Origin: Gammaproteobacteria bacterium
GTDB lineage: Bacteria > Pseudomonadota > Gammaproteobacteria > HK1
Direction of reading: 5' to 3'
DNA: 64,000 bases
Assembly: GCA_021773645.1 (NCBI GenBank)
Contig: JAJFJU010000011.1
Location: forward strand, 1-64,000
The notes under the pieces were generated by a model, which saw only the letters and a program-made list of their open reading frames with translations, was not told the DNA's origin and made no database searches. Below, piece after piece: positions 23,651-34,580 of the stretch. Position 1 is the first letter of the stretch. Each line of letters begins with the position of its first letter. Made by a program: the position numbers and the translations under genes.

Positions 23651-24583
23651 TTAGCTCGCACTCACTGGTTTCGTATTCCATCGATTCAACGCAAAACGGA
23701 GTAGAAAACGCCCAGGTGTACGATCCCATGGTGTAAAGCGTGGCAACTGGTAACGTTGCTGCCTTTTGGAGGCGACTCCGCGCTCCGTAGTAACCGCACC
23801 GATAAAGCCTAATTCCTTCACAAGGTCGACGTGCAACCGTGTGTAGTCCTTACCAGCCTTACCGTTAGGATAGGCAAAAACCTGCACTGGCTTGCCGATG
23901 AGTGCCTCAAGCCTTTCCTTCCCTTCAACGATCTCCCGCCGTGCTTCATCCACTGCCACCGACGCAAGGATAGGATGATTAACGGTATGTCCCCCGATCT
24001 CCATTCCAGCAGCAGCCAAGGCCCTCACTTGGGTGCTGGTCATCATCAATCCATCTGGTAGGCTCGTTCCTGAGATATTGGCTATGGCTTCAACTTTATC
24101 CAACCGTTCGACAGGGTCCTGATGTTTAAGCACGGTCAAAAGATGAGAAATTGCAGCCAGTTGTTCTTTTTGAGACATAATAGGAAAAAGGCCAAGGCCC
24201 AACTCCCACAAATCGAGTTCTTCCCTTTCTGAACCACGAATCGCTTCGATTAGCGTATCGTTCCACATTCGTCCACCATCCAGAAACCCGGTGGCAATGA
24301 AAAATGTTGCAACTAACCCCTGCTTTTTTAGAATAGGCAGCGCGACCTCATAATTATTGGCATAGCCATCGTCAAACGTGATACAGACCGCGCGTGAAGG
24401 TAATTGGCCTGCCCGAAGTAGCTCGATGGCCTTCTCTAATGGCAACACATTGTAGTACTTCCGCAATAGTTCCAAATGCCACTTGAATGTGCTGGCATCA
24501 ATGGCATCCGGAAATAGAAGATCCCGCTGCGCTTCTATCCCGTGGTAGTTGAGTATTGATAAACTTCTTTTTCGAAATACCAT
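23651..24583 (-). CDS. Polysaccharide deacetylase (NodB domain)
   Basis: This 310-residue protein has the NodB-type motif TFDDGYANN (about residues 69-77) and the metal-binding pair in GGHTVNHP (about 197-204), as well as AYPNGK. It probably removes N-acetyl groups from the polymer, acting in the cytoplasm or periplasm; no signal peptide is evident. This is a second deacetylase, distinct in sequence from the XrtA-type one at 41211. It is separated from the sulfatase-like gene upstream by a MITE-like element. Confidence 0.82.
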   Translation of the reverse strand: MVFRKRSLSILNYHGIEAQRDLLFPDAIDASTFKWHLELLRKYYNVLPLEKAIELLRAGQLPSRAVCITFDDGYANNYEVALPILKKQGLVATFFIATGFLDGGRMWNDTLIEAIRGSEREELDLWELGLGLFPIMSQKEQLAAISHLLTVLKHQDPVERLDKVEAIANISGTSLPDGLMMTSTQVRALAAAGMEIGGHTVNHPILASVAVDEARREIVEGKERLEALIGKPVQVFAYPNGKAGKDYTRLHVDLVKELGFIGAVTTERGVASKRQQRYQLPRFTPWDRTPGRFLLRFALNRWNTKPVSAS

Positions 24584-24831: not shown

Positions 24832-26583
24832 TTACGGCTTGGATTCATATAGAAAGTTTTCAAATTTATATTTTTCAACGAATTTCATTGCTAAATCAAA
24901 ACGCACAGGATCGTGGGAAAGACATCGCATCACACCTGCGAGAATACGGGCCGGCGTCGCGTATGTCGGTGTGTAGTGCTGTAGTTGTTCGGCCGTGCAG
25001 CCGGTTTTATTGACTAAGACAGTGGCCAAGATACCGTGCTGGTCCTGCACTACGAATGCTGGGTCATCATAGAATGAAATAGTTTGACTCAGATAAGGCC
25101 CATGGTCTCCGATAACGAGCAATATCGAAGGCCTGCTATTTTCGCTGACGAGTTTTCGCAAGTGCTCCATGATCTTGGCAACTTCTGCAGATTTTCTACG
25201 ATAACTTTCCGAAAACCGCGCCAACGCTTCTCGGTCCGAGCTACGGTAATTTGATTTGACGTGACCAATCGGATTGCCAATATAGTGGAGCGTAAACACT
25301 GGTTTGGCCCTAGGAGTAGGGGTGGCACGCTGCACAGCATCTATTACAGTGTTAGGCCATATCTCCACGGGACCAGCGCTTTCAGTTAGGGATGCCACAT
25401 CGCAAAACCCGAAAAACTTAAGGGGATTTTTGGTGGCTAGCGCACATAACGTGCTGTGACGACCTGCCCCCACCTCTACCTCCGTCGGTTGGTATGAATC
25501 AACAAATGGGCCTTTTGTGCCAAAATATAGATTATTAAATCCCGTCGAAATGGTATAGCCGTTAGCATGTAAAATATTGCTAACAGGACCATCCTTGCGT
25601 CCGGCAAAATAGCCTGAATTACTGCCAACATCAGTATTGGCGAGTCGCATCAAGCTATTGAGAGATGCTTTGGTCGGAGCCTTGCTTGCAAATGCGTTCT
25701 TGAAGGTCAACACCCCGTCACGATCCAATACTTTCGCGTAAGGCAAGTCAGACAGCCCCATGTATTTCTTTGTGAGGGCGATAGGTGCTAGCCCATCGAA
25801 TGAAACGATGTGAATGTTGGGCCTAGTACGGAATGTTATTTCGTCCAAATACGTCATAGGATTCGTGCTTTCCGGTACCGTCGACGAAGGAAGTGCAATC
25901 CCGGCTAAAGGCGCTATGAACGTCAGCACTAACACCGTATTAACACGGCGCAAAAGAACAATTCGTTTGCTAACGCTCAGGAAAATTATCCATAAACACA
26001 AAAATGCAAAAATCATAAAGGCCGCACGAATGAAAGCAGGCTGTATAAGAAACTTACCCATCAAAGATAGATAGAGCGCATAGAGATTGAATAGGCTTAA
26101 CGCCGCCATCAGGGGCAGAGGGAACCACCACTGCTGAGATCGTGAGAGAGTGATATAGACGATCAAAGCTTCCAGCGATAACACGAGACTAACCCAGGCA
26201 AATAATGGAACCCAGAACTGGCTACTAAGTTCGTTAATTACCGCAGACAATGATGCCACGAAGCAATTCAAAAAGATGAGCACTACCAGCAGAATAGTCC
26301 CGCGCATTACGGCGGTGTTTGACGAAACGTTGAGACGTGTATCGGCTCGCATCAAGCGCCAGATAAGAAATGCCATCGCGGCGATACCAAAGGTGATCGA
26401 CACACCAAAGATTTGCTCATACCGAGTTATGTTCGTGAGCCGGAAGATCGGATCTGAAGCTTTGTCGGGAAAGCTCCTGTAATTAATAGCTACATAGCTG
26501 AGGTAAAGGGCGTAAATAATGCCAAGTTGGCCAAGAAAGGTCTTGAATTGATTGCGTAAAAATAAAAGAATCGCCTGGAGCAT
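24832..26583 (-). CDS. Sulfatase-fold membrane enzyme (LtaS/EptA-like)
   Basis: This 583-residue protein has about five to seven N-terminal membrane segments (to residue 230) and a C-terminal sulfatase/alkaline-phosphatase domain. Metal-site motifs are IVSFDGLAP (Asp263) and VIGDHGPYL near residue 497. APTKASLNSL (Thr304) is a candidate nucleophile, a Thr as in phosphoethanolamine and lipoteichoic acid transferases. It probably transfers a phospho-group on the periplasmic side. It lies within a module with a glycerophosphotransferase-like and a YidC-like gene. Substrate is inferred, not shown. Confidence 0.75.
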   Translation of the reverse strand: MLQAILLFLRNQFKTFLGQLGIIYALYLSYVAINYRSFPDKASDPIFRLTNITRYEQIFGVSITFGIAAMAFLIWRLMRADTRLNVSSNTAVMRGTILLVVLIFLNCFVASLSAVINELSSQFWVPLFAWVSLVLSLEALIVYITLSRSQQWWFPLPLMAALSLFNLYALYLSLMGKFLIQPAFIRAAFMIFAFLCLWIIFLSVSKRIVLLRRVNTVLVLTFIAPLAGIALPSSTVPESTNPMTYLDEITFRTRPNIHIVSFDGLAPIALTKKYMGLSDLPYAKVLDRDGVLTFKNAFASKAPTKASLNSLMRLANTDVGSNSGYFAGRKDGPVSNILHANGYTISTGFNNLYFGTKGPFVDSYQPTEVEVGAGRHSTLCALATKNPLKFFGFCDVASLTESAGPVEIWPNTVIDAVQRATPTPRAKPVFTLHYIGNPIGHVKSNYRSSDREALARFSESYRRKSAEVAKIMEHLRKLVSENSRPSILLVIGDHGPYLSQTISFYDDPAFVVQDQHGILATVLVNKTGCTAEQLQHYTPTYATPARILAGVMRCLSHDPVRFDLAMKFVEKYKFENFLYESKP

Positions 26584-26678
26584 TATTCTTAACTAGGTCC
26601 GTTTTCAAGTCGTGATTTCACCGACTCAGGGTCCTTTAGAATACCCGATAGGATATCCAGAATCAGATCCTTCGTCAT

Positions 26679-28133
26679 TTACATCGGGGCAAAGGGAGTG
26701 TCTATCTCAAGCAATGAATTCTGGCCAGGCATCTTTACCAGAAACGGCAGCTTCCGTGTTCTTAATCCATCGTATTGCTCGGTGAATCTCCATTCGTGGT
26801 CAGCAGTAAGAACAATAGCAGTTGAATCCCATAACCCGGCCTGCTCGAGCGCTCTGCGTAGTTCGCCAAACAGCCGGTCGGCCAGGACTAGATTACCGAA
26901 ACAACCTGTTTTTGACGTATTAAATAACGTCAGATCCTGAGTTCGCTCGTCATAAATATCGGGGCCGTGGGGAACTGATGCATGTATATAGACCAAATCA
27001 TAGGTCGGGTTCGCGACCACGTGCGGTGCGCGCTCCATGAAATGCTTATAGGTCTGTACGCCATTGATGCGCCGGAATACCGGGGTAATCCCCGTCAAAT
27101 GTGAAACCATCTCGTGCACTACCGAGGTCGTGGCTTGAATAGCGTAGGTATTGATGCCATACCACGAACAATAAGAATAATCGGGATAAAACACTCGGCA
27201 GTACGGATAATAAATGCCCATGATGGCGGTGGTCGCACCGAGCCGCTTTTCCTCGCTAATAACCGTAGACTTATCCGTCCAGGAAAATAGGTTTTTCTCC
27301 TTATCAGCGTCGAGATAGAAGCCAAGAGTTTCCTTTCTCCTCGTCCCACTTTCCTTGACGTACTGACCGAACAGGTACGATGGGATGGCTTCGCCGGTGC
27401 TTTTTGAGCGGCTTTCAGCATTATTTGAGAATATCGATTCATTCCGGAATCGCTGTAGCTCAGGGAGCTCGATCCCGGGTGGGCGATCCAGAAATGCGAG
27501 CCGCAGAGCTAGCTCATCAAAGATTAGCCATATAACTCTTTGAGTAGGAGCAGTAGTGCCCGGAACAGCTTTTCTCTGTACCTCATCAGGAATGTTTGCC
27601 TCAGCATTCGATAACGTGACCATCTGCCAGGTCGCATTACCAACGGTTATCAGCCCGAATGGGGCAAGCACCAACAGGGCCGTAGCCACAAGCTTCGTTA
27701 CCAGAGTCAGTCGGAAAGACAATAGATAGATCGCTCCCAAGGCTATTCCAGTCCCAATCAATACAGCGATCCAGGCATTGTCCTGCAGCGAATAGATGGT
27801 GCTGGAGTCGATATGAAGCGCCATGCGAGCGAAGTTCAATGGAAATACGAGCAAACCAAGAAATACCATGCGGGAAATTTGTTCCAGCCAATGGACACCC
27901 AACTTTCGAATCATCCATAGACAACCCCATAGAATGAAAGTCCAGCCGAGCAAGTTCAACAACACAGCGTAGTAGCTCTGCAGGGTATAGCTCGGCATCC
28001 AGTACAGATCGCTGCTGTTGGCAAAAACGAGTTCCCGCCATACTGTAAGAAAGCTAAGGTTAACCAGGGAGAAGCAAACAACGAGGTCGTACGCTGCCCG
28101 ATTTTTATATTGCGTGCCCAATGCCGTAATCAA
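26679..28133 (-). CDS. Second sulfatase-fold membrane enzyme
   Basis: This 484-residue protein has N-terminal membrane segments (about 1-165) and a sulfatase-like domain with WLIFDELA (Asp206), candidate nucleophile Thr246 in SKSTGEAIPSYL, and LTADHEWR near residue 448. The last third is shorter than in many LtaS relatives, and the frame ends in FAPM without obvious loss. It differs strongly from the enzyme at 24832. The small AYLDPGTGS protein gene ends 6 bp upstream of its start codon, so the two may form a pair. Confidence 0.72.
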   Translation of the reverse strand: MITALGTQYKNRAAYDLVVCFSLVNLSFLTVWRELVFANSSDLYWMPSYTLQSYYAVLLNLLGWTFILWGCLWMIRKLGVHWLEQISRMVFLGLLVFPLNFARMALHIDSSTIYSLQDNAWIAVLIGTGIALGAIYLLSFRLTLVTKLVATALLVLAPFGLITVGNATWQMVTLSNAEANIPDEVQRKAVPGTTAPTQRVIWLIFDELALRLAFLDRPPGIELPELQRFRNESIFSNNAESRSKSTGEAIPSYLFGQYVKESGTRRKETLGFYLDADKEKNLFSWTDKSTVISEEKRLGATTAIMGIYYPYCRVFYPDYSYCSWYGINTYAIQATTSVVHEMVSHLTGITPVFRRINGVQTYKHFMERAPHVVANPTYDLVYIHASVPHGPDIYDERTQDLTLFNTSKTGCFGNLVLADRLFGELRRALEQAGLWDSTAIVLTADHEWRFTEQYDGLRTRKLPFLVKMPGQNSLLEIDTPFAPM

Positions 28134-28139
28134 CAGCTC

Positions 28140-28415
28140 TTAGGAATTACTCTCTTCTTCACTCACGTTATCCACTGGCTCACCCTTTTCCGGCTTCTTC
28201 GAGGACTTAGACTTAAAGAAAAAGGCTTTAATTCGATTCCAGTAGAGCTTCAACGTAAAAGCGGCTCCAGCTATCGCTGCGATTGCCCCCTGAAGGATGA
28301 TGCTGCCGGTACCAGGATCGAGGTAGGCGTATACGGAGGTACTATAAATAACAGACGGGGCAGCGATGAAACCAGCTGATACGATGGGTTGGATCTTCAT
28401 TTTCTTATCCTTCAT
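28140..28415 (-). CDS. Small membrane protein with AYLDPGTGS motif
   Basis: This 91-residue protein begins with a signal-like segment (start at residue 1 or at Met6), continues with the highly characteristic AYLDPGTGSIILQGAIAAI, one membrane segment, and a charged tail rich in Lys, Ser and Glu. Short proteins with AYLDPGTGS are seen next to sulfatase-fold and glycan genes in many bacteria, but to my knowledge their function is not established. Its position next to the sulfatase-like gene suggests a partner or chaperone role. Confidence 0.75.
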   Translation of the reverse strand: MKDKKMKIQPIVSAGFIAAPSVIYSTSVYAYLDPGTGSIILQGAIAAIAGAAFTLKLYWNRIKAFFFKSKSSKKPEKGEPVDNVSEEESNS

Positions 28416-28477
28416 GTAACGACGGAGCTCTTTTGGAGTTTTATGTTTCCCAAGATTCTATACATCCTTCCAGAGTT

Positions 28478-29260
28478 TTAGCTATAGGGTTCCTGCTCAT
28501 ACCATCTCTGGAACTCCTCAAGTGCATTCTCGTAGTCCTGCTCAGTGTCGATCTCCTTCCACCCTCTCTCGATGATAATGCAATGCACTGGCACTCCCAG
28601 ATCAATCATGTCCTGAAGCAAGTCGGCTACGTAAGCTTTCTCGAAGGTCTTCGCGCGCTGGAACGGCTTGCCCAAAAAAAGTGCTTGTGCCCGATCATAG
28701 TGCAGCTTGAAGATCTCACAGCCACGCGGAGAGAGTTTCAGCATTCCGATGAACTCGCCGTGCACATCCATCTCATTTGCAATAACCTGGCCGATTTTTA
28801 CGACCTGATTATTCGCATCAAAAATAACATTCTCCGCTTCCGAAGGTGGATGCTCGGACCGCCCCTTATATGTCTCGCGCCAATCAATATCCACGACCAC
28901 AGAGATATCGTGCTGGGACTGCAATACACGTTCCACTACATGATTTGCAAATAGGATGTCCGAGTATGAGATCAGTACATCTCCCTCAAGTGCATCCTTC
29001 GCGCACAACAAGGAACCAAGCACATTGGTGCTCTTATAATCATCGTTATCGTGATAATGAATATCGGGGTAATTAATCATCTCCTTCTTGTAACCACGTA
29101 CGATATGAACATCATCCACACCATTTTGTTTGAAGGTATTGATCTGTCTTTGCAGGATCGTGCGCTCACCTACTTTAAGCATGCATTTGGGAAGTTCCTC
29201 GGTGTATCCCTTGAGCCGGCTCCCGAGCCCCGCCGCCGTTATGATTGCCTTAATCCCCAT
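28478..29260 (-). CDS. CTP-type nucleotidyltransferase (LicC-like)
   Basis: This 260-residue protein starts at the ATG at 29260, preceded by CAGGAG. AAGLGSRLKGYTEELPKCML (residues 9-28) is the nucleotidyltransferase signature of the phosphocholine/sugar-phosphate cytidylyltransferase group. It probably makes a CDP-alcohol such as CDP-choline, CDP-ethanolamine or CDP-glycerol in the cytoplasm. The adjacent glycerophosphotransferase-like gene is a natural user of such a product. A nucleotide-sugar role is an alternative. Confidence 0.78.
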   Translation of the reverse strand: MGIKAIITAAGLGSRLKGYTEELPKCMLKVGERTILQRQINTFKQNGVDDVHIVRGYKKEMINYPDIHYHDNDDYKSTNVLGSLLCAKDALEGDVLISYSDILFANHVVERVLQSQHDISVVVDIDWRETYKGRSEHPPSEAENVIFDANNQVVKIGQVIANEMDVHGEFIGMLKLSPRGCEIFKLHYDRAQALFLGKPFQRAKTFEKAYVADLLQDMIDLGVPVHCIIIERGWKEIDTEQDYENALEEFQRWYEQEPYS

Positions 29261-29332
29261 GGTTTTTCTCCTGAATACTGATTTCAACAACCCCCGATTT
29301 TATTCATCGGGATAATCAATCACGTACAGACC

Positions 29333-30994
29333 TTAGCCCGAACTCGTATCTGCAGCACGCTGGTCCCACTTAACCACCATCGCTTGCTGCATTGATTGTA
29401 GTAAGTTTGTACAAAGCCAATAGAGCATCAGCGCCGCTGGAAAATTGTAGAGTAAAAAGAAAAATACTAACGCCATGATGCCCATTGCCTTGCGCTGCCC
29501 GTTTACCTGCTTGGGGTCCGCGCCAGGGGCCGACTGTCCGCTCACGAGAACTTGGGATGCAGCCATCAATACCGGCAGCAAATTCAGGTAAGGGCCGAAA
29601 TATGGAATCTCGAAACCAAAGGAAAGGAGCCGGTCGGGCAGCGCAAGATCTTCCATCCAGAGGAAGCCAACACCCCGAAGCTCGAAGGATTCACCGATGA
29701 CGAAATATAGACCGATAAAGATTGGAATCTGAATTAGCACCCATAAGCAGCCTGTCAATGGTGCCAACATGCTCATACCATGCTCCTCATAAAGCTGCTT
29801 TGTTGCGAGATGTTTCTTATCAAAGTCGCCCTTGAACTCCTCATTAATTCGTTGAAGTGCCGGTTTGATCCTTGCCTGTTCAAGCTGGGTCCTGGCCTGA
29901 TGGCGCTGCGCGGCTATTCCAACCGGCACCAGAATCAATCGAATAACCACCGCGAGTGAGATGAGGGCAAGCCCCCAATTCTGGAGGAGAAGATACAGGG
30001 CACTCAATAACCACTGAATCCCAAGGCACAGCCACTGCATCCAGAACCAGAGATCAGCAAAAAATAACTGCTTGAGTTCTGAGTCCTCTGCGAACGCCGC
30101 AGCCGTCTTTGGTCCCGCATAGATTCGATAGGCTAGCACTGCGGATTCACCAGGTGCGATAGATATCTGTGAGACCGCAAGTTCGAGTTGCATCATCTGG
30201 GTCGCAGGGTCTGTGTCGGACTGTAGCTCTGATATCGGGCTCAGGATCGCCGACTCAAGGCGCCCTGCACTATCACCAGATTTCAAAGCGAGCAAGAAGT
30301 ACCTGTTTTCGATACCCGCCCACTCAATCCCTGCCGGCGTGAAGCGATCTGATTCCAAACCATCCTCTGGCGGCTCTACGGGCACCACCCCGTCAGCCGA
30401 GAGCAACACACCACGAGTAAGGGAGGGTGCGACCGCCTCCAATGATCCAAGCCGTGGGCCGAGTCGGATAGCAAAGTTGTTTTTGCCATCGCCTAAGGTA
30501 ACGGTACGATCTCCCTCATTACGCAATTCGATTGAATGCCCAACGGCGTATCTGTCTCCGGCAAACCGATAGGTCTTGATGATGCGAAGTCCATCGTCAA
30601 GGCGCGGTGAGGTAAACCGAAGTACCTCCGTTGATCCCTCCGTGGTACGGGCAAGGGCATAGCCTGCTCGATTAACGATTTCGGAAAGGTCGACATCGCC
30701 CTGAGACAGCACGAGGTCTAGAGGCCGACCCGAGTCTGACATTGTGATCGCTGGGTCGATTAGGGTTTCCCGGGCCATACCGCCCGGTCTGGGGATACGC
30801 AATCGCCACTCAACGGGAACTCCACCCTCAAGAGTGAACATCACCATGTGAGGACCGTGTTCGATCGAGGTGAAATTCTCGTCGTCCCCGAGCGCGACCC
30901 GCCACAGCGAAAGCACGATGAGGGCAAAGCACACTAGAATTGTGCGGGCTAGGATCTGCACTATATTAAGGCCGATGAGTGGTCGTGTGGTCAT
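29333..30994 (-). CDS. YidC/Oxa1-family membrane insertase paralogue
   Basis: This 553-residue protein is a full-length Gram-negative-type YidC. It has an N-terminal membrane segment, a periplasmic beta domain (about residues 45-300) and a C-terminal insertase core of about five membrane segments with the conserved groove arginine (Arg352 in LAVVIRLILVPVG). The housekeeping yidC normally sits with rnpA and mnmE, so this is almost certainly an additional copy. It overlaps the glycerophosphotransferase-like gene by 4 bp (ATGA) and is probably translated with it. The periplasmic domain is diverged. It may insert the membrane enzymes of this module. Confidence 0.9.
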   Translation of the reverse strand: MTTRPLIGLNIVQILARTILVCFALIVLSLWRVALGDDENFTSIEHGPHMVMFTLEGGVPVEWRLRIPRPGGMARETLIDPAITMSDSGRPLDLVLSQGDVDLSEIVNRAGYALARTTEGSTEVLRFTSPRLDDGLRIIKTYRFAGDRYAVGHSIELRNEGDRTVTLGDGKNNFAIRLGPRLGSLEAVAPSLTRGVLLSADGVVPVEPPEDGLESDRFTPAGIEWAGIENRYFLLALKSGDSAGRLESAILSPISELQSDTDPATQMMQLELAVSQISIAPGESAVLAYRIYAGPKTAAAFAEDSELKQLFFADLWFWMQWLCLGIQWLLSALYLLLQNWGLALISLAVVIRLILVPVGIAAQRHQARTQLEQARIKPALQRINEEFKGDFDKKHLATKQLYEEHGMSMLAPLTGCLWVLIQIPIFIGLYFVIGESFELRGVGFLWMEDLALPDRLLSFGFEIPYFGPYLNLLPVLMAASQVLVSGQSAPGADPKQVNGQRKAMGIMALVFFFLLYNFPAALMLYWLCTNLLQSMQQAMVVKWDQRAADTSSG

Positions 30995-32148
30995 CGCTCG
31001 TCCCGGATTCGATCAGACAACTCTGCCAGAATCCGGGCACCAACCTCGCCACTTTGGCCCACATTGTAGACCCACGCCTCACGTGCAGCGCGAATGCGCT
31101 CGCGATACTCCTCGGCCCCAGTGCGCAGGAACTCGATCTGGTCGCCTGCATCATCAATATCCTCTACCGCCAGCACTAACCCGATCTCCTTACGCAACTG
31201 GTCTTCGAGCGGCAGGCAGTCAATACACTCGTAATCCGGATTATTCACTTTGCGGGGAACATCGATAAACAGCACTGGGCGCTCGAGACCGAAGGCAAAC
31301 TCCAGGGCAGCCCCGGACCAATCACTCACCATCACGTGAGAGTTATAGAAGGAATCATGGGATCGGATATCCTCTTCATGTCGATAGCCCTCCTGCCCCT
31401 CAAATTTCTGGCGGATTCGATCAATGGCGTCGGGATTGGTTTTTCTCGTATTGGGATGAGGTCGCAGATATACCTCAAATCCCGCGCGTAGCAATGAACC
31501 CACCAGCTGCTCACCATGAAGCTCAAGCATCCCCTTAGGTCCCCACGAGGGAGCCACCAACACCCGGGTACGATCTTCCCCTGGAGACTCTCGGCGTGCA
31601 CCTTCCTCAATGATGCTATCCAAGGGCCCGTATCCGTGCTTGAAGAGCTCCTTGGATTTTAAACCACGCGCCTCTTCCCAGGCTCGTATCTCGGTCTCAT
31701 GATGTGGGCCAGCACAAAGAACACCATCAAAGTGATCGAAAGCGCCAGTCCTATAGACCATGTGGGTACTGACGATAGAGTGCTGCAGATACGCATAGTA
31801 GACCGGATACTTAGAGCGCTTCAGATGGAAGGTCTCCAGATCTGGCATGGTCATAACCAACATGCCCGCTTCCAGATTCTTGAAGAACGCGATCAGTGTA
31901 GATGTCGACTCCATATAAAAGGCAGACAATCCGGGAATTTCTTCGCTAAGCAGGGGATCATCGGCATCGTTCGTCACATAACACAAAGAACGTCCCCGGT
32001 CTTCAAGCAGGCGCTTCATGACCGGCCAGAGATATATGGAGTACCCCGCACCCTCGGAATAGAAAAAAATCGATCTGTCTTCCTGTGAGAGGTTCTTAAA
32101 GCGCGAGTATTCACGCCACGATCGGATGAATTTACTGAATAACATCAC
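30991..32148 (-). CDS. CDP-glycerol glycerophosphotransferase-like protein
   Basis: This 385-residue protein has the TagB/TagF-type GT-B fold: VLVAPSWGPKG near residue 196, VYLRPHPN near 226, and MVSDWSGAALEFAFGLERP near 274. These are the features of glycerophosphotransferases that build wall teichoic acid. In this Gram-negative locus it may add glycerol- or ribitol-phosphate, or a related phosphoalcohol, to the polymer. It is the first gene of the module 24832-32148; the YidC-like gene starts within its last codons. A MITE-like element overlaps its first base pairs. Confidence 0.8.
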   Translation of the reverse strand: MMLFSKFIRSWREYSRFKNLSQEDRSIFFYSEGAGYSIYLWPVMKRLLEDRGRSLCYVTNDADDPLLSEEIPGLSAFYMESTSTLIAFFKNLEAGMLVMTMPDLETFHLKRSKYPVYYAYLQHSIVSTHMVYRTGAFDHFDGVLCAGPHHETEIRAWEEARGLKSKELFKHGYGPLDSIIEEGARRESPGEDRTRVLVAPSWGPKGMLELHGEQLVGSLLRAGFEVYLRPHPNTRKTNPDAIDRIRQKFEGQEGYRHEEDIRSHDSFYNSHVMVSDWSGAALEFAFGLERPVLFIDVPRKVNNPDYECIDCLPLEDQLRKEIGLVLAVEDIDDAGDQIEFLRTGAEEYRERIRAAREAWVYNVGQSGEVGARILAELSDRIRDER

Positions 32149-32363
32149 TGTTGTCCCGTTAATCGAAGACCCGTCATCCCGGGCTTGAACCGGGATCCAG
32201 CAAACGCTTTAAAAACCTGGATTCCGGCTCAGCAAAAAACGCTGTCCGGAATGACGGCGTTAATTTGTTGGCATCATGTCTAGCTAACTAACATTGGAGA
32301 TTGAACTAGCCTTTGCCAGCTAGGCTTCTGACCAATTTCTCCCGAAGTTAACGGGACAGCAGT
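32147..32363 (+). mobile_element. MITE-like element, copy 6
   Basis: Terminal repeats ACTGTTGTCCCGTTAATC (32147-32164) and AGTTAACGGGACAGCAGT (32346-32363) enclose 180 bp with a clear hairpin of the type CCCGTCATCCCGGGCTTGAACC / GGATTCCGGCTCAGC...GCTGTCCGGAATGACGG. It is the best-conserved copy. It marks the upstream boundary of the phosphopolymer-like module. Confidence 0.88.
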
Positions 32364-34207
32364 GGCTTTTCATGAATCGTCTGTTGAAAGTCTTCCAGAA
32401 TCATCATTACCCAAATTAACCCGCCATAGAACCCCGGCGTCTCCTGAAGCCATTTATTTCTTATCTCATCGATAAAATCTGCCCGAATGATATTTCTTGA
32501 TTTCAGGCTCTCCAGAGAATCAAAGGCAAGTTCCCTGAACTTTCCTGGAGCCTGCATCCAGGGACCCACCGGTAGTCCAAAGCCATGTTTCTTCTTGTGG
32601 ATGATTTCTTCAGGCAGAAAATCCCTCAGAGCTTCCTTGTAAAAATACCTCAGCTTGAATCCTTTTAGCTTTAGGTCAATCGGCAATCGGGTTGAGAACT
32701 CGACCAAAGCATCCGACATAAAGGGATAGGCGGCATTGATATCCGCCAAATCACACATGCCGGTCACTTTTGGCAGGTCGTTATCTGCCAGGGTGTATTT
32801 ATAATCCAGGGCTAACATACGATTGAGCATGGTATTCGCCTCAGGAGCATTATAGGTTCGGCGGCGCTCATTCAAAGGTGTAGCTTGATCTATAGATGTC
32901 AGGAAATCGGGTTCAAATATATTATTAGCCCCAAACCAATGGATGAAGTTATAGGATTCCATCCGGTCCGGCATGGGTTCACGAGCCTGCTCCACATAGC
33001 GCCATGCTTTTCTTATGGGCCAGATAGCGTCTCGTGCAGGAAACTTCTCTAGCGTGGGCTCAATTAGGTTTCTCTGAACGCCTTTAGGGATCTTGTCGTA
33101 CCAGGAGAACAGTTTCTGTTTCGCATAGCGTTCATTCCCACCAAATAGCTCATCTCCTCCATCACCACCCATTATTCGATCATTGCCATCTGCACGTGCC
33201 AGCTTTGCGCAGTAATAGGCGGGAATAACCGATGAATTCCCGAATGGCTGCCCATAGACCCCGATAATTTTCGGCACGAGATTTACGATATCATCCGGGG
33301 TTACGAAGTATTCGTGGTGGTCTGTCTGAAAATGCTCGGCTGCAATATGTGCGTAGTGGGTTTCATCATAGCCCTTGGCATCAAAGCCGATGGAGTAGGT
33401 GCGTGCAGGTTCTCCCGTTACCTCGCCTAGATATCCGGCAAGGGTGGATGAGTCGGTACCCCCACTCAAAAAGCAGCTAAGGCGATCTCCATGCTTGAGT
33501 TCCCTTTTTACTGAATCACCTATTAGAGAACGAAACTCATCCTTATAGTCCGCTACGCTCCTGTTTAATTTCTCATCGGAATACTTGAGGTGCCAATAAC
33601 TGGATATGGATGTATTACCATTCTCAAACTTTATGCAGGTTCCCGGATCTAGCCGCATCACTTGCTTATAGATAGTGCGCGGAGCAGGAATGACGTGAAA
33701 ATACAGGTAGTTGTATATGGCCTGTGGATCCACATCTAAAGTAAGAAATGGGTTGTCTACGAAGCTATTGAGGTGACTGGAAAAGACGATGCCGTTCTCA
33801 ACGAATGCGTAGTAAAGAGGACATATGGCAGCCCTGTCGGTGGCGATAAGTGCCTTTCGCTTAACTATATCGAGGATGACCAGGGAGAAGGGGCCCGAGA
33901 TGTGATCCAGCACGCCGTCACCGAGGCGACGATGGCCCCTCAGGATGGCAGGTCCTCCGCCGTGGGCTCTCTCATCCTTGGCGAGCTCTGGGGTATTGAA
34001 GTCTGGCGTGCCAGATAACGCAGCGGCATATTCAGCATCTGCAGTTAGATAGTTTCCCCAAGGTGCCACTACCGCTATGCCCCAGTCTTCGCCCGTGGCT
34101 GTGGTTATCTCTGAGACATCATTCGTATCCAAGGATTGGGCCATCTTGGTTACAACAAGCTCGCTGGAGATTTCCCCCGGAGGTTGGAGTCCGATAAATC
34201 CGCACAT
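32348..34207 (-). CDS. Asparagine synthase-like amidotransferase, degenerate glutaminase
   Basis: This 619-residue protein starts at the ATG at 34207 so that Cys2 becomes the N-terminal nucleophile (MCGFIGL). The synthetase domain is complete, with SGGTDSS near residue 252. The glutaminase domain lacks the usual RGPD and YNGEIYN motifs seen in the related enzyme at 37108. It may therefore use ammonia, or act as a ligase with poor glutamine use. The role is probably amide formation on a uronic acid of the polymer or on the precursor. Its C-terminal end lies next to a MITE-like element. Confidence 0.8.
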   Translation of the reverse strand: MCGFIGLQPPGEISSELVVTKMAQSLDTNDVSEITTATGEDWGIAVVAPWGNYLTADAEYAAALSGTPDFNTPELAKDERAHGGGPAILRGHRRLGDGVLDHISGPFSLVILDIVKRKALIATDRAAICPLYYAFVENGIVFSSHLNSFVDNPFLTLDVDPQAIYNYLYFHVIPAPRTIYKQVMRLDPGTCIKFENGNTSISSYWHLKYSDEKLNRSVADYKDEFRSLIGDSVKRELKHGDRLSCFLSGGTDSSTLAGYLGEVTGEPARTYSIGFDAKGYDETHYAHIAAEHFQTDHHEYFVTPDDIVNLVPKIIGVYGQPFGNSSVIPAYYCAKLARADGNDRIMGGDGGDELFGGNERYAKQKLFSWYDKIPKGVQRNLIEPTLEKFPARDAIWPIRKAWRYVEQAREPMPDRMESYNFIHWFGANNIFEPDFLTSIDQATPLNERRRTYNAPEANTMLNRMLALDYKYTLADNDLPKVTGMCDLADINAAYPFMSDALVEFSTRLPIDLKLKGFKLRYFYKEALRDFLPEEIIHKKKHGFGLPVGPWMQAPGKFRELAFDSLESLKSRNIIRADFIDEIRNKWLQETPGFYGGLIWVMMILEDFQQTIHEKPLLSR

Positions 34208-34580
34208 TCCTGTCATTTGATATGGAGCCTGATTGTGTGATCTGGATTATTCGTTGCGCTCACCCTACGGGCCGCCCTTTGGGCGTTCAACGCGCTGCGT
34301 GGTTTTGTGATGCGGGATGGGGAGGGGAATGGGCGGAGCATACGCGCCTCCCCGTCATCCCGGTCAAGCGGAGCGCCATAGCTGGGATCCAAGGAACGGA
34401 GCCACGGCCAAGCGGGTATCGTTGGTCTGTAGAGATCTATTTTCACTGCCTTTGTTTCCTGGATTCCCGCTTCCGCGGGAATGACGGTGGTTTTGTGATA
34501 CAGGGCAACCCCCCAGGAATGACGGTAGTTTTATAATATGGGGCGGGCTGTACGGAAATGATCAAATAAACGGCGTTTGC
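34208..34580. other. Gene-free stretch made of dispersed repeats
   Basis: Between two - strand genes this region holds the GGATTATTCG...CGGGCCGCCCTTT element (34243-34300), a CCCGTCATCCCGGTC...GGGATCC element (34351-34397) and CCTGGATTCCCGCTTCCGCGG with AATGACGG (34459-34486). No open reading frame with family resemblance was found. Confidence 0.65.
34243..34300. repeat. Dispersed repeat, GGATTATTCG...GCGCTGCG type
   Basis: Same element as at 39251-39310, where it lies in reverse orientation; a diverged copy is at 1903. It contains the palindrome GGGCCGCCCTTTGGGCG. Confidence 0.7.

Follow-up and report, generated by a model that had tools for sequence, protein, structure and literature searches.

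The window analysed here, a stretch of 64,000 nucleotides from a gammaproteobacterial genome (GenBank assembly GCA_021773645.1, contig JAJFJU010000011.1, positions 1 to 64,000), carries an exosortase A (XrtA) exopolysaccharide locus containing a gene for a second YidC, termed YidC2 hereafter. This gene belongs to a block of six open reading frames, which were found at 24832-32148, all on the minus strand, as a preliminary description of the sequence had claimed. The other five encode a TagF-like transferase, a LicC-like cytidylyltransferase, a small membrane protein with the motif AYLDPGTGS, and two membrane enzymes with a probable sulfatase fold (sulfA and sulfB). The linkage between these genes extends well past the window's genus, into many taxonomic families. 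Judged from the genes, the balance tips modestly towards the block being a phosphoryl-decoration module of the XrtA exopolysaccharide, in which YidC2 would serve as a dedicated, lasting membrane partner of a sulfatase-fold enzyme. The established role of YidC/Oxa1 proteins is protein insertion, and a second YidC that is linked or fused to putative phosphorus-attaching enzymes suggests that the insertion fold has been recruited for cell-surface decoration. No description of this module was found in the open-access literature.

Linkage of YidC2 to the module genes

YidC2 matched PF02096 (60KD_IMP) with 129 bits (cut-off 35) and, over part of its length, PF14849 (YidC_periplas) with 45 bits (cut-off 24). 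Arginine 352 occupies the groove position and is invariant in three species of the genus, so that the Pfam domains and the three-species alignment bear out a full-length YidC paralogue with the groove Arg352. The window's genome, which is 99.9% complete, encodes exactly two PF02096 proteins. The other yidC lies on a separate contig and adjoins yidD and mnmE; it is the housekeeping copy, whose presence had been set in advance as a check. As this copy fills the rnpA-yidD-yidC-mnmE place, YidC2 is not the housekeeping orthologue. A tree of the core domains collected 18 housekeeping YidCs in one group (support 96/97) and placed all 12 YidC2s to one side of a branch (support 96/86), although the order inside the YidC2 clade is unsure because some of its branches are long. 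YidC2 thus forms a separate clade and is not a recent within-genome duplicate. It shares the 60KD_IMP core, the periplasmic domain and the groove Arg with the YidC/Oxa1/Alb3 insertases, but differs from them in this clade position, in lying outside the yidD-yidC-mnmE locus, in its polysaccharide context, and in having relatives fused to a sulfatase fold.

Co-occurrence was examined in a sample of 369 Gammaproteobacteria genomes, one per species. Relatives of the transferase were present in 11 of them, and two PF02096 matches in 18. A second YidC was found in 10 of the 11 genomes with the transferase versus 8 of the 358 without it (Fisher p = 4e-14; p = 1.5e-11 when the window's genus is counted once), where each row is one species genome with no further correction for shared ancestry. 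Among these eight, G054 and G308 have apparently broken single yidC genes, and in G092 the second PF02096 match is sub-threshold (G and L numbers are our labels for genomes and loci). Also without the transferase, G155 has YidC2 adjoining an AYLDPGSGS gene and close to a sulfatase gene, and in G124 a short YidC2 adjoins a methyltransferase-like gene. In G211, two contigs with an exact shared end of 141 bases carry the transferase and YidC2, one each, in the same order as in G381; since the shared stretch resembles a repeat, this junction is likely, short of proof. A phylum-wide sample added only weak further relatives of the transferase, and the two of these that were checked from the class have one YidC each. 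No relative of the transferase was present in the viral collection, and in the plasmid collection neither the YidC-sulfatase fusion nor the AYLDPG-transferase fusion described below had a relative.

In three loci, the YidC core and a sulfatase-fold domain are joined through additional helices, giving proteins of 959 (L028), 830 (L030) and 941 (L082) residues. Their sulfatase halves are homologous to a stand-alone sulfatase of L077 (E approximately 1e-12 to 1e-18), whose gene lies near those of YidC2 and an AYLDPGSGS protein. The AYLDPGSGS sequence is itself fused to the N-terminus of the transferase in L028 and L030, as is the form YIDPGTGS in L031. Furthermore, in L026 the genes for the transferase, a YejM-like sulfatase and YidC2 are linked by overlaps of 4 bp each, and a stop-start overlap couples the transferase to the YidC2-sulfatase fusion in L028. 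The 4-bp overlap of the first two genes noted earlier in the window exists and is conserved in both congeners, and thus present in all three species. These congeners, the metagenome-assembled genomes OFTM50 and OFTM98 of two further species, keep the order asnB2, transferase, yidC2, cytidylyltransferase, AYLDPGTGS gene and deacetylase. The fusions and overlaps are the strongest signs that the parts of the module work together, and the class-wide co-occurrence, the fusions and the separate clade uphold the earlier idea of a dedicated module with a non-housekeeping YidC. At the groove position, the seven other full-length YidC2s that stand alone have R (G001, G002, G360, G155) or K (G381, G370, G211), and the three fusions, in which the periplasmic (P1) domain PF14849 was not found, have N, N and T.

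Three more of the eight genomes with a second YidC match but no transferase, G141 (L078:7241-11431), G208 (L080:5008-9318) and G367 (L079:6746-11365), encode giant proteins of approximately 1400-1540 residues with a YidC core. Pfam searches, run on L078 and L080 only, assigned to them two rhodanese domains, the YidC core, PPDK_N and PEP-utiliser domains, with PilZ in one. By this architecture, the three giants appear to be a different, unrelated YidC fusion of the PEP-synthase type.

Enzymes of the module and candidate donors

The transferase passed the PF04464 (Glyphos_transf) model marginally, scoring 22.7 bits where the cut-off is 22.1, and falls outside all NCBIfam models. A profile of its 11-member family matched TarL (8va1, E = 4e-4) and Cps3D (8qoy, E = 9e-3) among solved structures. 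H123 and H231 of the RPHP motif are invariant across the 11 homologues, and we take them to be the counterparts of the catalytic His pair of TagF. AlphaFold models computed from three sequences gave predicted confidence (pLDDT) values of 39.5 for YidC2 and 49.2 for the transferase, too poor to use. The enzyme shares a GT-B phosphotransferase core and the two His motifs with TagF/TarL-like polymerases of capsules and teichoic acids, including the Gram-negative Cps3D (8qoy) and HS1.09 of Campylobacter jejuni HS:1, a TagF/TarL-like example from a Gram-negative capsule (PMC11924219). The likeness extends to the logic of a donor activated by cytidine triphosphate (CTP) and, as predicted for the window, to a phospho-group in a Gram-negative glycan. 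In contrast to these polymerases, the window enzyme is short and single-domain and resides in an XrtA locus beside a YidC paralogue and sulfatase-fold enzymes, and the donor may be a phosphonate or phosphoramidate in its relatives.

The cytidylyltransferase matched PF12804 (NTP_transf_3) with 48.9 bits, and its closest solved structures were LicC (1jyk, E = 4e-15) followed by PntC (6pd1, E = 4e-8). It shares with LicC and PntC (1jyk, 6pd1; PMC6697681) the NTP_transf_3 fold, the N-terminal nucleotide-binding half and a phosphotransferase neighbour. It differs from them in that, among the loci compared, it is most similar to the cytidylyltransferases of glutamine-kinase operons (30% identity to that of L024), and in that neither PepM nor choline kinase was found in its genome.

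Genes beside relatives of the transferase point to the kind of donor. In L027 (655-5435), PepM, Ppd and an Fe-alcohol dehydrogenase directly precede the TagF-like transferase and YidC2, a gene set that suggests a hydroxyethylphosphonate-type decoration. The transferase is accompanied by a PepM-cytidylyltransferase, Ppd and an aminotransferase in L026, and by PepM, Ppd and LicD in L028. In L024 (1-4920) and L029 (3205-11410), its neighbours are a PPDK_N/PEP-utiliser (glutamine) kinase, a C26 amidotransferase and a cytidylyltransferase. Presumably, glutamine kinase, CTP:phosphoglutamine cytidylyltransferase and C26 hydrolase are the genes of the Campylobacter O-methyl phosphoramidate pathway. 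A like trio is thus found beside transferase relatives in L024 and L029, and a related cytidylyltransferase in the window, whose genus differs in having no glutamine kinase. The shared theme of the linked donor genes appears to be a CTP-activated phosphorus donor, of phosphonate type in three loci and phosphoramidate type in two to four. That the cytidylyltransferase feeds the transferase, as the preliminary description proposed, is supported in outline, because the genes adjoining distant transferase relatives belong to phosphonate or phosphoramidate donor routes with CTP-activated intermediates; the cytidine diphosphate-alcohol named there would be merely one possible donor.

Glutamine-kinase-type operons lie near TagF-like transferases in four gammaproteobacterial genomes (L024, L029, L057 and L058), suggesting phosphoramidate glycans outside Campylobacter; their C26 hydrolase was checked in L024 and L029. 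Beyond L024 and L029, homologues of the kinase and cytidylyltransferase genes were seen in the vicinity of weaker relatives of the transferase in G624 and G747, each with one YidC. Candidate donors were sought in the window's genome as well. A phosphonate was rejected, as its two PF13714 proteins do not have the PepM motif EDKxxxxxNS and one of them is a PrpB-type lyase. A phosphoramidate made by known routes was likewise rejected, as no glutamine kinase was found in the three congeners, while four other genomes matched at E = 1e-134 or better; the C26 search, run without a positive control, was empty. Choline kinase PF01633 was absent from the window's genome, a weak test, since the control was positive in only 5 of 14 genomes and kinases of the LicA type may belong to another family.

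The AYLDPGTGS protein matched no Pfam or NCBIfam family. A degenerate DNA motif for it was detected in 11 of the 369 class genomes and in none of the reversed controls, and the protein is kept in the three congeneric species and seven other loci. Against PF00884 (cut-off 25), sulfA scored 23.6 bits and sulfB 22.9 bits; sulfB obtained the same 22.9 bits against PF01663, each score being just under the respective cut-off. No NCBIfam model matched these sulfatase-like proteins, and a sequence search of the PDB returned nothing for sulfA and only weak sulfatase matches for sulfB. Window sulfA is only 26-27% identical to its positional counterparts in the congeners; despite this, D263, T304, H441, D493 and H494 are invariant, and Thr304 is a candidate nucleophile. 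The metal-site motifs FDE and ADHEW are carried by sulfB. Both enzymes share a multi-spanning N-terminus, a probable outward sulfatase-fold domain, a Thr and metal-site motifs with enzymes of the LtaS/EptA/YejM(PbgA) type, and true YejM-like DUF3413 members fill the sulfatase slot in L025 and L026. The window enzymes differ from these in their sub-cut-off scores and in having no convincing match to any solved chain. In OFTM98, sulfB persists only as a C-terminal remnant (L007:12800-13024). The expectation that the six genes stay together in related genomes therefore held for the core, and failed for sulfB, deleted in one congener, and for sulfA, which has diverged.

The window's sulfB (26679-28133) stops approximately 30 residues short of its OFTM50 orthologue. 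Also noticed was a trio that recurs in several loci (L097:5156-8639, L098:5410-8624 and L099:8953-12410): an AYLDPGTGS protein, a methyltransferase-like protein and a membrane enzyme with a sulfatase fold. The genomes bearing it (G027, G197 and G182) have a single YidC, and G155 has the same trio plus YidC2.

Proposed function and alternative readings

Following its family, the LicC-like enzyme would activate a phospho-compound, X-P, with CTP. The TagF-like transferase, given its fold and conserved His residues, would then move P-X from this CTP-derived donor to a sugar hydroxyl, probably at the cytoplasmic face and on a lipid-linked glycan. YidC2, the AYLDPGTGS protein and a sulfatase-fold enzyme may subsequently act as a complex at and outside the membrane, where it would move or trim the phospho-group or hand it to another acceptor. 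YidC2 would provide an assembly platform and/or lipid access, rather than being a spare housekeeping insertase. A broader proposal, which we offer tentatively and regard as on balance doubtful, is that a YidC/Oxa1 clade left insertion and now supplies a periplasmic sulfatase-fold phosphotransferase with its transmembrane subunit, which may be a lipid flippase or scramblase. With the AYLDPGTGS peptide and the TagF-like transferase as further components, that phosphotransferase would add phospho-, phosphono- or phosphoramidate groups to surface polysaccharides.

Several observations weigh against the decoration module with a lasting YidC2 partner. The window's genome has no PepM, glutamine kinase or PF01633 choline kinase. 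G356, a genome 85% complete, has the transferase and donor genes without YidC2, and has a Wzx-type flippase; in G131, the transferase and the fusion lie on separate contigs. The AYLDPG protein and sulfatase occur without YidC2 in three genomes. In addition, window sulfB matched the fused sulfatases at E = 0.003-0.006, and the homology of sulfA and sulfB to them is unclear beyond the fold.

The preliminary description had YidC insert one of the membrane enzymes. It is rather unlikely, in our estimate, that YidC2 is such a dedicated insertase or chaperone, for which the clients would be the sulfatase-fold enzymes, with their several membrane spans, or the AYLDPG protein, and which would leave once insertion is done. 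The full YidC domain, periplasmic domain and R352 of the window protein would suit this role, as would Arg or Lys in the groove of the seven other stand-alone proteins and the adjoining genes for membrane enzymes, and insertion by the window's YidC2, which has R352, is possible. However, in three cases YidC2 and the putative client form one fused protein, and similar multi-spanning sulfatase enzymes exist without YidC2. The N, N and T grooves render classical, basic-groove insertion unlikely in the fusions. Fusion to a sulfatase domain and the lost groove charge would fit a permanent partner or a lipid-handling role at least as well as insertion.

Such lipid handling, in which the substrate that YidC2 brings across the membrane for the periplasmic sulfatase-fold enzyme would be a phospholipid or a lipid-linked phospho-glycan, we judge unlikely. 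Lipid scrambling in liposomes has been seen for E. coli YidC as for other Oxa1-family insertases (PMC10491306), but this ability is generic to the family and hence not specific evidence. The fusion to an outward-facing sulfatase-fold domain speaks for it, as does the Wzx-type flippase gene in G356, the sole class-sample transferase locus without YidC2 in its genome, although a complete XrtA locus should bring its own export machinery. That yidC2 is just a duplicate which landed in a variable polysaccharide locus through chance, or is kept there as a spare, is very improbable: such loci are gene-rich and variable, and sulfA and sulfB differ between species, yet the association across many families (Fisher p = 4e-14), the translational coupling, the three fusions and the single separate clade all argue otherwise.

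Lipid scrambling by YidC/Oxa1 proteins has so far been demonstrated in vitro and in simulation (PMC10491306). A YidC clade tied by operon and fusion to the phospho-decoration of glycans would offer a physiological setting for testing a non-protein role of the fold. The steps following C-P bond formation have been described as enigmatic (PMC6697681), and the module may help to locate surface polymers that bear phosphorus and are still uncharacterised, of phosphonate, phosphoramidate or a further type, in Gram-negative bacteria.

Arrangement of the locus

The exosortase A setting claimed in the preliminary description was confirmed by the full canonical gene set: XrtA scored 240.6 bits against an NCBIfam cut-off of 208, and PrsK/PrsR, the chain-length factor, PEP_O_lig, the XrtA amidotransferase and others also exceeded their cut-offs. 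The block is thus surrounded by a canonical XrtA/PEP-CTERM exopolysaccharide locus, from which the window differs by an eight-gene insert between PEP_O_lig and hydrolase 2 that resembles an added module. The insert reaches past the six genes to an AsnB-like gene upstream and a polysaccharide deacetylase downstream, both conserved (Table 1).

Table 1. Genes of the block and its conserved neighbours in the window.
Feature	Position	Strand	Evidence
TagF/TarL-like phosphoryl transferase (glyphos), GT-B type	30991..32148	-	PF04464
YidC2, full-length YidC/Oxa1 paralogue with periplasmic domain and groove R352	29333..30994	-	PF02096, PF14849
LicC/PntC/phosphoglutamine-type cytidylyltransferase (putative donor activation)	28478..29290	-	PF12804
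Small AYLDPGTGS protein with one transmembrane segment	28140..28415	-	Motif conservation
sulfB, membrane enzyme with ~5 transmembrane segments, C-terminal sulfatase/phosphodiesterase fold	26679..28133	-	PF00884/PF01663, sub-cut-off
sulfA, membrane enzyme with ~6 transmembrane segments, C-terminal sulfatase fold	24832..26583	-	PF00884, sub-cut-off
AsnB-like amidotransferase paralogue, conserved upstream neighbour	32348..34216	-	TIGR03108, 281 bits (cut-off 817)
Polysaccharide deacetylase, conserved downstream neighbour	23651..24583	-	PF01522, 85.8 bits

The AsnB-like gene adjoins the transferase in the three congeneric species, and an asnB is also found beside the transferase in L029. The N-terminus of this paralogue reads MTG(M/I)CG in the three species, so that position 2 lacks the N-terminal catalytic Cys that class II amidotransferases usually have there.

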